Source: Anaerolineae bacterium (GTDB taxonomy: Bacteria; Chloroflexota; Anaerolineae; J102). Taken from it: DNA of 56,217 nucleotides. Where the stretch lies: contig JALXCB010000099.1 of NCBI GenBank assembly GCA_026991225.1, positions 1 through 56,217 on the forward strand, written 5' to 3'. Position numbers and translations under genes: made by a program. Below, one piece after another: positions 15,371 to 55,403 of the stretch (its first letter is position 1; each line of letters begins with the position of its first letter). The notes below the pieces were generated by a model that was not told the DNA's origin, ran no database searches, and was given only the letters and a program-made list of their open reading frames with translations.

Positions 15371-15406
15371 TTGCGCCTGCGGGCGGCTCGGGGGTAAGAT
15401 CGCAAC
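15371..15406 (+). promoter_or_regulatory. Predicted leaderless promoter of yvcK
   Basis: TTGCGC (15371-15376), an 18-bp spacer and TAAGAT (15395-15400) end only 6 nt before the ATG, so transcription should begin at or next to the start codon. No ribosome site is present. The -35 overlaps the flank of MITE B2 by only a few bases. Confidence 0.6.
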
Positions 15407-25447: not shown

Positions 25448-25458
25448 GACGGATTTTA
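25448..25458 (-). promoter_or_regulatory. Predicted leaderless -10 box of the kinase gene
   Basis: On the minus strand TAAAAT (25458-25453) is separated from ATG 25447 by 5 nt. It overlaps the stop codon of the VapC remnant, so the kinase promoter has been built from that gene's end. No good -35 is seen at 17-18 bp. Confidence 0.45.
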
Positions 25459-34443: not shown

Positions 34444-34472
34444 ATCCTATCACATTGTGTGCATTTTGGCAA
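34444..34472 (-). promoter_or_regulatory. Predicted leaderless promoter of the BrnT/BrnA module
   Basis: On the minus strand TTGCCA (34472-34467, 5 of 6 to consensus), 17 bp, TAGGAT (34449-34444), then 6 nt to ATG 34437. The antitoxin RHH domain would be expected to bind here. Confidence 0.65.
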
Positions 34473-37107: not shown

Positions 37108-37142
37108 GGAAACATTGTAATCCACCCCATCCCCAGCCCCAA
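37108..37142 (-). promoter_or_regulatory. Predicted leaderless promoter of the phosphodiesterase gene
   Basis: TTGGGG (minus strand 37142-37137), 17 bp, TACAAT (37119-37114), then 6 nt to the ATG. No ribosome site. Confidence 0.6.
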
Positions 37143-37193
37143 AATCCAATGACGATTTATTTTTTCGGGAGGAGTTATGGTATAGTTCCCCCT

Positions 37194-49446: not shown

Positions 49447-49476
49447 ATTCTAATCACAAATGACCGCAATCGCCAA
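49447..49476 (-). promoter_or_regulatory. Predicted leaderless promoter of the AAA regulator
   Basis: TTGGCG (minus strand 49476-49471), 18 bp, TAGAAT (49452-49447), 5 nt (GGAGG) and the ATG at 49441. Because the 5 nt are GGAGG, the site might also act as a very short ribosome site. Confidence 0.55.
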
Positions 49477-50445: not shown

Positions 50446-50480
50446 TTGCCCCTGCCATCACTCTCGATTACAATGTTTTC
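50446..50480 (+). promoter_or_regulatory. Predicted leaderless promoter of the SGNH hydrolase gene
   Basis: TTGCCC (50446-50451), 17 bp, TACAAT (50469-50474), then 6 nt to ATG 50481. No ribosome site is present. Confidence 0.65.
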
Positions 50481-52897: not shown

Positions 52898-53594
52898 CGA
52901 CGTTGGGGTGCGTCCCAAATTATGGGCGCGTTGCGCCTGACGCCCCGGAGGTGAACCTCCGGGCTGGAAACGACGCCCCCTCAAGGGGGCTTTCAGAGCC
53001 AGCCCGCGCCCAAAGCCGGGTTCACCCGGCGTGGTTTGTAGTGGAGCCCGCTAAAGATTAAAGAATCTTTCGTTTATCACCCTGAATCCTTAATCTTTAG
53101 TCTTTAATTCGTGGACATCAATTTGTAAAGATATGGGATAGCAATTCTAAACCACACATGATCCTCAAATGGCCTCGCTGAAACCCTGGGCCGGCTGGGC
53201 CGCCGCCCATCGACATGTGATCGGGCGAGGAGGCGGGCCCGGATGAGGCCTGGTATGTAAGCTATGACGGTCAGGTGGAGACGCAGCCCAACCGATTGGG
53301 GCAACCCGCGGCATGGGTATCATCGCGTGAGAGAGCCGTAGGAATCCCATGACAAGCCCGCGCCGATACCGAGGAAAACGCCTCGCGGCCAGGGCGGCTC
53401 GGGAAGCCAGTCACGTGATGCGTAATGCGTAATGCGTGATGCGTAACGATTTCACGTTTCACGTTTTCACGCATCACGCCCGTTGCAGACTCGCCCAACT
53501 TTGATTTGGCGATCTTTTCTCAATCAACGCCAACGCTATTTTGGGAACAGGCGCTCGACTGGACGCCCGCCCGCCGTCGGTTTATAATGCTGCC
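52898..53594. repeat. Repeat-rich gap before mutL (families D, F and C)
   Basis: This 697-bp gap has no convincing gene. 52906-53045 is the reverse complement of the right part of the 601-bp element (starting GGGTGCGTCC, then family D palindromes), but it lacks the second end. 53050-53108 is a family F hairpin (AAAGATTAAAG against AATCCTTAATCTTTAGTC). 53104-53350 is unique DNA with a stop-containing remnant frame. 53358-53553 is family C copy 3 ending in GGGAACAGGCGC. Confidence 0.65.
53560..53594 (+). promoter_or_regulatory. Predicted leaderless promoter of mutL
   Basis: TGGACG (53560-53565, 4 of 6), 17 bp, a perfect TATAAT (53583-53588), then 6 nt to the ATG at 53595. No ribosome site. Confidence 0.7.
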
Positions 53595-55403
53595 ATGCCC
53601 ATCCACATTCTTCCTCCCGACGTGGCCGACAAAATCGCGGCCGGCGAAGTGGTGGAGCGGCCCGCGTCCGTGGTGAAAGAGCTCATCGAGAACAGCCTGG
53701 ACGCGGGGGCCACCGAGATTCGCGTCGAGATCGCGGACGGCGGCAAGCGCCTCATCCGCGTCATCGACAACGGACGCGGCATCCCCGCCGCCGAAGCGCC
53801 CCTGGCCTTCCAGCGCCACGCCACCTCCAAAATCCGCTCGGCGGAAGAGCTGGAGCATATCGCCACCCTGGGGTTTCGGGGCGAGGCCCTGGCCGCGATC
53901 AGCGCCGTGAGCAAGGTGACCCTCATCACCCGCGCGCAAGAGGAGCCGGTGGGGGTTGAGTTGAAGCTGGAAGGGAGCCGGATCGTCAGCCAGCGGGCCA
54001 TGGGCGCGCCGCCGGGGACAAGCCTGACTGTGGAGCATCTCTTCTGGAACACGCCCGCCCGCAAGAAATTCCTCAAATCCAATGCCACCGAGACCGGGCA
54101 TATCAGCAAAATCGTCACCCGATACGCCCTGGCTTATCCCGAAGTGCGATTCAGCCTGGTGGCGGAAGGGCGGCTTCGTTTTCAGACGCCCGGTTCGGGC
54201 GACCGCATGGCCGCGCTGGTCAAAGTGTACGGCCCGGACATCGCCAGTCAGATGCTGCCGGTGGAGGTGGCCGAGGACCCGGTGGCGCCGCAGGTGCGGG
54301 TGAGCGGGTTCGTCAGCGCACCCACGCTGCACCGGGCCAATCGCAGCCATATCGAGCTGTTCCTGAACCGGCGCTACATTCAGGATCGCAATCTGACCTT
54401 CGCCGTGGTGCAGGCCTATCACACCCTGCTGATGACGGGGCGGTATCCGGTGGCGGCGCTGTTCATCGACATGCTGCCCGAGCTGGTGGATGTCAACGTG
54501 CATCCCACCAAGACGGAGGTACGCTTTCGGGAGCCGTCACTGGTGTTTCGGGCGGTGCAGAGGGCGGTGCATCGGGCGTTGCAGGGGCAGGCGCCTGTCA
54601 CCCGCGAGCTGCAAACGCCGGGGACGCCCGAGGACTACCGTAATCAGTGGGCCGCGCGGCGTCAGGCCCTGGTGAGCGCGGGAAAGGCGGAGCCTTCGCC
54701 CGGGCAACTGGCCATGGACCTCTATCGTTCGGAGCTGGCGGGCCGCGAGGAGACGCCCCTGGTGCGGAAGGAAACGCCGGAGACGCCCCCGCCACCCCTC
54801 GCATCCCAAACAGGGGGCGACCGTCTGCCGCCCTTGCGTCCTATCGGACAGATCGCAGCCACCTATCTCATCGCCGAGGGCCCCGACGGCATGTATCTCA
54901 TCGACCAGCACGCGGCCCACGAGCGCATTCTCTACGAGAAGATCATGCAGGCCGAGCAGCAGCCTGTACCCAAACAACAGTTGCTGCAACCCGTCCCCAT
55001 CGAGCTGGGCACGCAGCTCGCGGGCCTCATCGCCGAGCATTTGGAGACGCTGAATCAGAGCGGGTTCGAGATCGAGCCCTTTGGCGAGGGCAGCTATCTG
55101 CTGCGGGCCGTGCCCGCGTTCATGGGGGCGCAGGACCCGCAGTCCCTGCTGGAGGAGGTGGCGCAGGGCTTGGCGCAGCGCACGGATCTGGTGGGCAAGG
55201 CGCGAGAGGAAGCGCTGGTGACCATGATCTGCAAGCGGCTGGCCATCAAAGCGGGGCAGATCCTCTCCGTGGCCGAGCAGCGGGAACTCATCCGTCAGCT
55301 GGAGGCGTGCGAGAACCCCCGCACCTGTCCTCATGGCCGCCCCACCATGCTGCATCTCAGCGCCGCCGCGCTGGAAAAGCAGTTCGGGCGGCTGGGCGCG
55401 TGA
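53595..55403 (+). CDS. mutL: DNA mismatch repair protein MutL (endonuclease type)
   Basis: MutL links mismatch recognition to strand excision. The 602-residue protein has the GHKL ATPase motifs (ELIENSLDAGATEI, DNGRGI, HATSKI, LGFRGEAL) and a C-terminal domain with the metal endonuclease motif DQHA-x2-E-x4-E (DQHAAHERILYE) and CPHGRP near the end, so it should nick DNA as in bacteria without MutH. A QLLQPVPIEL stretch may bind the beta clamp. No mutS is visible nearby. The start is defined by the conserved MPIHILPPDVADKIAAGEVV and the leaderless promoter. Confidence 0.96.
   Translation: MPIHILPPDVADKIAAGEVVERPASVVKELIENSLDAGATEIRVEIADGGKRLIRVIDNGRGIPAAEAPLAFQRHATSKIRSAEELEHIATLGFRGEALAAISAVSKVTLITRAQEEPVGVELKLEGSRIVSQRAMGAPPGTSLTVEHLFWNTPARKKFLKSNATETGHISKIVTRYALAYPEVRFSLVAEGRLRFQTPGSGDRMAALVKVYGPDIASQMLPVEVAEDPVAPQVRVSGFVSAPTLHRANRSHIELFLNRRYIQDRNLTFAVVQAYHTLLMTGRYPVAALFIDMLPELVDVNVHPTKTEVRFREPSLVFRAVQRAVHRALQGQAPVTRELQTPGTPEDYRNQWAARRQALVSAGKAEPSPGQLAMDLYRSELAGREETPLVRKETPETPPPPLASQTGGDRLPPLRPIGQIAATYLIAEGPDGMYLIDQHAAHERILYEKIMQAEQQPVPKQQLLQPVPIELGTQLAGLIAEHLETLNQSGFEIEPFGEGSYLLRAVPAFMGAQDPQSLLEEVAQGLAQRTDLVGKAREEALVTMICKRLAIKAGQILSVAEQRELIRQLEACENPRTCPHGRPTMLHLSAAALEKQFGRLGA

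Follow-up and report, generated by a model that had tools for sequence, protein, structure and literature searches.

Leaderless genes have been described in Chloroflexi by Zheng et al. 2011 (PMC3160421): of 12 genomes, 4 contain genes of this TA-led kind, which represent 4.7% of the genes there (4.0–5.7). In Deinococcus-Thermus, a 2025 study established by experiment that an ORF-adjacent -10 motif drives leaderless transcription (PMC12340547). A search of one literature collection for transcription-start papers on Chloroflexota returned none. We analysed a stretch of 56,217 nucleotides, hereafter the window, which is contig C99 (61% GC) of an Anaerolineae (Chloroflexota) MAG with a genome of 3.87 Mb in 201 contigs. 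Its MutL is closest, with 86% and 81% identity, to proteins encoded by other MAGs of the Anaerolineae (Chloroflexota). A preliminary description of the window had listed -10 boxes, most of them paired with a -35-like hexamer, at a constant 5–7 nt from the ATG of several genes, and a check of the sequence found every one of these boxes in place.

Short-spaced promoters in the window

Upstream of mutL, the arrangement consists of the following elements:

53560..53565, + strand: -35-like hexamer TGGACG of mutL, a weak match to TTGACA, separated from the -10 by a 17-bp spacer
53583..53588, + strand: -10 hexamer TATAAT of mutL, 6 nt before the ATG and kept in relatives
53595..53597, + strand: ATG of mutL, with predicted transcription +1 at A53595; the start agrees with the N-terminus alignment and the Pfam MutL domains

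The whole, TGGACG-N17-TATAAT-N6-ATG, matches the consensus at 10 of 12 positions, and a promoter scan found it to be the only promoter-like site in 53200–53900, with 0.2 expected from shuffles. Most close homologues of MutL align from residue 1. The TATAAT box is also located 6 nt before the mutL ATG in four relatives (L026, L027, L035 and L036) and is replaced by TAAAAT in two others (L029 and L030). In L034, L040, L041, L042, L043 and L062, given as examples, TATAAT lies 20–30 nt upstream, often with a GAGG-like site. Among the Anaerolineae relatives L026–L062, the putative leaderless form of the mutL promoter alternates with a form having a 20–30 nt leader, and the mutL upstream regions could serve as a natural series in which to follow how leaderless expression evolved. 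Two genes, mutL among them, have an interspersed repeat, CACGCATCACGCCCGTTGCAGACTCGCCCAAC, in their upstream DNA (1907–1938 and 53468–53499); when up to 4 mismatches are allowed, about 48 copies are counted in 1.23 Mb of the same genome.

Four other genes of the window present a -10 box at the same distance:

15371..15376, + strand: -35 hexamer TTGCGC of yvcK, with TTGC kept in congeners and N18 to the -10
15395..15400, + strand: -10 hexamer TAAGAT of yvcK, 6 nt before ATG 15407
50446..50451, + strand: -35 hexamer TTGCCC of the SGNH hydrolase gene, N17 to the -10
50469..50474, + strand: -10 hexamer TACAAT of the SGNH hydrolase gene, 6 nt before ATG 50481
34467..34472, - strand: -35 hexamer TTGCCA of the BrnT-like gene, N17 to the -10
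34444..34449, - strand: -10 hexamer TAGGAT of the BrnT-like gene, 6 nt before ATG 34437
37137..37142, - strand: -35 hexamer TTGGGG of the phosphodiesterase gene, N17 to the -10
37114..37119, - strand: -10 hexamer TACAAT of the phosphodiesterase gene, 6 nt before ATG 37107

Eight genomes of the genus carry yvcK, and in each of them the element GGTAAGATC precedes the ATG, with a spacing of 6 in seven cases and of 7 in L198; beyond the -35, the upstream sequences of these congeners have diverged. In other genera of the family, TATAAT, where visible, is found further upstream of yvcK, and in more distant relatives a TATAAT box followed by a leader is frequent at both mutL and yvcK. For the SGNH hydrolase, TACAAT is placed at 6 nt in 5/7 genomes and at 7 and 9 nt in the remaining two. 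The only close orthologue of the phosphodiesterase gene (L167) does not retain the box.

A different promoter precedes the S2P gene, whose product is a fusion of Clp_N and M50 peptidase domains (Pfam):

37154..37166, + strand: T-rich element GATTTATTTTTTC in the -35 region of S2P, conserved in congeners
37181..37186, + strand: extended -10 of S2P (M50 peptidase), TATGG-TATAGT, 7 nt before ATG 37194

The preliminary description had credited S2P with the -10 part only; its 7-nt spacing is borne out by conservation in all nine genomes of the genus; the hexamer is TATAGT in eight of them and TATCCT (TATGG-TATCCT) in L279. The T-rich block is likewise conserved in 8/9 congeners and weaker in L279, and a single copy of the element is present in the 1.23 Mb sampled from the MAG. 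The region 37154–37193 thus forms a genus-conserved unit of T-rich block, extended -10 TATGGTATAGTT and a 7-nt gap before the ATG, and may represent a leaderless promoter with its own regulation. S2P and the phosphodiesterase gene are transcribed away from each other, their two short-spaced promoters standing back to back within 86 bp (37108–37193). A wider proposal has two parts. In some Anaerolineae, leaderless expression would be conserved gene by gene, and individual orthologous genes (mutL, yvcK) would switch it on or off from one related family to another; the Clp_N-M50 gene would moreover have a distinct, strongly conserved leaderless promoter, made of the T-rich element and the extended -10, under its own factor. 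We consider this joint proposal unlikely.

The boxes are conserved between species and the flanking DNA is not, with footprints seen for yvcK, SGNH and S2P across the genus and for mutL in six relatives.

A preferred distance of 6 nt in the genome

The distance between box and start codon was scanned in a total of 1.80 Mb of own-genome DNA. A first sample of 1.23 Mb consisted partly of contigs picked for TATAATN6ATG, so that its counts are inflated; two further batches of contigs, from which every TATAATN6ATG contig is absent, are biased the opposite way. Genes were called by a simple codon score blind to upstream signals, and the called starts are partly uncertain; the TANRAT test does without start calling, as it considers a box before any ATG that opens a coding ORF. 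By this test, the first sample contains 48 cases at spacing 6 versus a mean of 4.5 elsewhere (P about 2e-32, in partly hit-selected contigs), and about one tenth of the spacing-6 sites are expected by chance. The excess was also found in contigs chosen by number alone (8 versus 1.8), in contigs without TATAATN6ATG for TANRAT boxes other than TATAAT (13 versus 2.0, P = 2e-7), and in the whole, unselected genome, where TATAATN5YATG occurs 29 times versus once at a 12-nt spacing and 0 times for the reversed pattern. Before called starts of the 1.23 Mb, TANNNT gives 34 cases at spacing 6 and a flat level of about 7–8 at other positions, and TANAAT gives 25 versus 1.3. No spike at 6 is seen for TANNNT boxes that do not fit TANRAT, and GTG and TTG starts show none comparable to that of ATG in the own-genome sample. 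All 34 gene-called members start with ATG; leaderless genes of Mycobacterium tuberculosis, by comparison, use both ATG and GTG.

The constant distance of 5–7 nt claimed in the preliminary description therefore holds in part. A count of boxes by distance over the genome does reveal an excess (48 versus 4.5, 29 versus 1 and 13 versus 2.0), but it is carried by spacing 6, since spacing 7 has 10 TANRAT cases in 1.23 Mb, weak against the spike, and spacing 5 has 2, under the background mean of 4.5. Both spacing-5 cases of the 1.23 Mb are located in the window:

49447..49452, - strand: TAGAAT of the AAA regulator gene, 5 nt before ATG 49441, probably outside the class
25453..25458, - strand: TAAAAT of the kinase gene, 5 nt before ATG 25447, probably outside the class

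These two genes had been presented as similar to the class and as showing its -10 part, respectively, and we have removed both, their spacing being at background. For the AAA regulator (TTGGCG-N18-TAGAAT-N5, with GGAGG in the gap), neither the geometry nor the N-terminus is conserved in relatives, and the conserved region begins near residue 25–30; for the kinase, the box is absent in orthologues. The idea of a local cluster was rejected as well: the window has 5 sites where about 2.2 are expected (P = 0.07), and it is a typical piece of its genome, not a special one.

The sites at spacing 6 share several traits, of which the -1 pyrimidine, the -35 TTG and the TG trend were not used in selecting the set. 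The base at -1 is C or T in 46/48 cases. A -35 TTG lies 16–18 bp upstream in 21/48 cases, versus 15/126 at other spacings (P = 1e-5). The -10 consensus is TANRAT with a trend to TG immediately upstream, as in an extended -10, and the 6-nt gaps between the -10 and the ATG are C-rich and without a GGAGG Shine-Dalgarno (SD) sequence. Lead genes preceded by a long gap make up most of the set, and a few sites are inside operons. Pfam matches were obtained for 26 of 28 further members scanned, and many of the domains start within 2–20 residues of the spacing-6 ATG, which makes these ATGs credible starts. The members include DNA polymerase III gamma/tau, signal peptidase, PSP1, UbiE and serine dehydratase, as well as a histidine kinase, a D12 DNA methyltransferase and a glycosyltransferase.

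The size of the class was estimated from the excess of boxes unused in contig selection (22 per Mb for non-TATAAT boxes over 1.80 Mb) together with the whole-genome TATAAT count of 33. This gives about 117 genes, roughly 3–5% of the genes, a range that depends on whether called genes or the usual gene density serve as divisor. Such genes are a minority: SD-like 4-mers are rightly placed before 37% of the called genes versus 5% in a control region, hence SD-led genes are far commoner. The prediction of many leaderless mRNAs in the preliminary description is thus supported as to their nature, but their number is modest.

Probable leaderless transcription and its alternatives

Promoters of the sigma-70 type usually start transcription at a purine at +1 preceded by a pyrimidine at -1. 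When 6 nt separate the -10 hexamer from the ATG, the usual +1 is the A of this codon, and the mRNA should accordingly begin with AUG. From the +1 geometry, the C or T at -1, the -35 TTG, the interspecies conservation of the boxes and the genome-wide excess, it is very probable, as far as the sequence can tell, that the TANRAT-N6-ATG genes are leaderless and that their transcription starts at the A of AUG. A housekeeping RNA polymerase of the sigma-70 type would bind a weak -35 and a TANRAT -10 ending 6 nt before the ATG. Transcription would begin on the A of this ATG, after a C or T, and give an mRNA starting with 5'-AUG that leaves no space for an SD site. As in the bacteria where this has been studied, the ribosome may recognise the 5'-terminal AUG directly. 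The arrangement would be used by about 3–5% of the genes, mostly ordinary housekeeping and regulatory ones, beside the larger SD-led set. The position of the boxes, their spacing, base preferences, conservation and phyletic pattern are observed; to these we add an inferred exact transcription start and mode of ribosome binding.

Other readings were considered. The spacing could be an artefact of base composition or of start calling, since a codon-score caller treats AT-rich sequence as non-coding, and such sequence could halt the score before the chosen start. However, the same spike appears, at one spacing only, in the whole-genome pattern counts made without start calling (29 versus 1), and an AT-rich Clostridium is devoid of it; the probability of an artefact is close to nil. 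Alternatively, the real start codon might be further downstream, which would make the ATG at 6 nt false and provide the mRNA with a short leader. Some called starts are indeed uncertain, and the conserved region of the AAA regulator near residue 25–30 goes in this direction. On the other hand, MutL homologues align from residue 1, Pfam domains are found at residues 3–20 in many cases, and the spike is tied to ATG with none for GTG or TTG, which a random upstream codon would not give, so that we regard a downstream start as exceedingly unlikely.

The boxes might also be real but secondary, the main transcripts beginning further upstream with a leader. This would be in line with the upstream TATAAT and leader used by some relatives at mutL and yvcK, and with the few sites located inside operons here. 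As the set is mostly made of lead genes with long upstream gaps, and as the box is conserved across the genus when the DNA upstream is not, we judge this reading very improbable. Leaderless transcription from the 6-nt boxes is therefore preferred for the class.

Distribution in the phylum and comparison with known systems

Among 151 sampled genomes of the phylum, the family f14, which belongs to the same class and comprises 12 genomes, has 617 occurrences of TATAATN5YATG versus 73 at the 12-nt spacing. Many other families of this sample have few or none of either pattern. Comparing the 6-nt with the control spacing, an excess is also seen in Anaerolineae HyVt-591 (18 versus 1), Thermoflexales (29 versus 3) and Anaerolineales ACE_CHL7 (33 versus 2), and there is no spacing excess in Anaerolineae SKYG67 (2 versus 4). 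The negative controls, Clostridium sp. OS1-26 (143 versus 144) and a Bacillota MAG (39 versus 36), show no spacing effect. Since the counts differ by genome and the controls are flat, the excess is patchy within the phylum and is not a general effect of composition. The genus of the window, Thermoflexales and Anaerolineales would thus have a clear leaderless class, and other lineages of the phylum would be without one. Individual orthologous genes, for instance mutL and yvcK, could be used to trace the gain and loss of leaderless expression. The start codons of the set could be called exactly from the promoter, which would help the annotation of uncultured Anaerolineae.

Compared with known systems, the class is closest to the TA-led genes of Zheng et al. 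2011 (PMC3160421), with which it has in common a TANNNT-type -10 placed about 12 bp before the start codon and a similar share of genes. That study does not mention the present lineage; here the box is TANRAT, almost strictly at 6 nt, and the start codon is ATG. In Deinococcus-Thermus (PMC12340547), the -10 is similarly placed at a fixed short distance from the ORF, the -35 being optional, but about 30% of the ORFs are concerned there, on experimental evidence, versus about 3–5% here, in another phylum and from genome sequence. Mycobacterium tuberculosis (PMC3898074) is likewise reported to combine a TANNNT box and transcription from the start codon with SD-led genes alongside. Its leaderless share is much larger than here. 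The genes reported here are new instances in an uncultured lineage; they call for no new mechanism and agree with published work in kind and amount.
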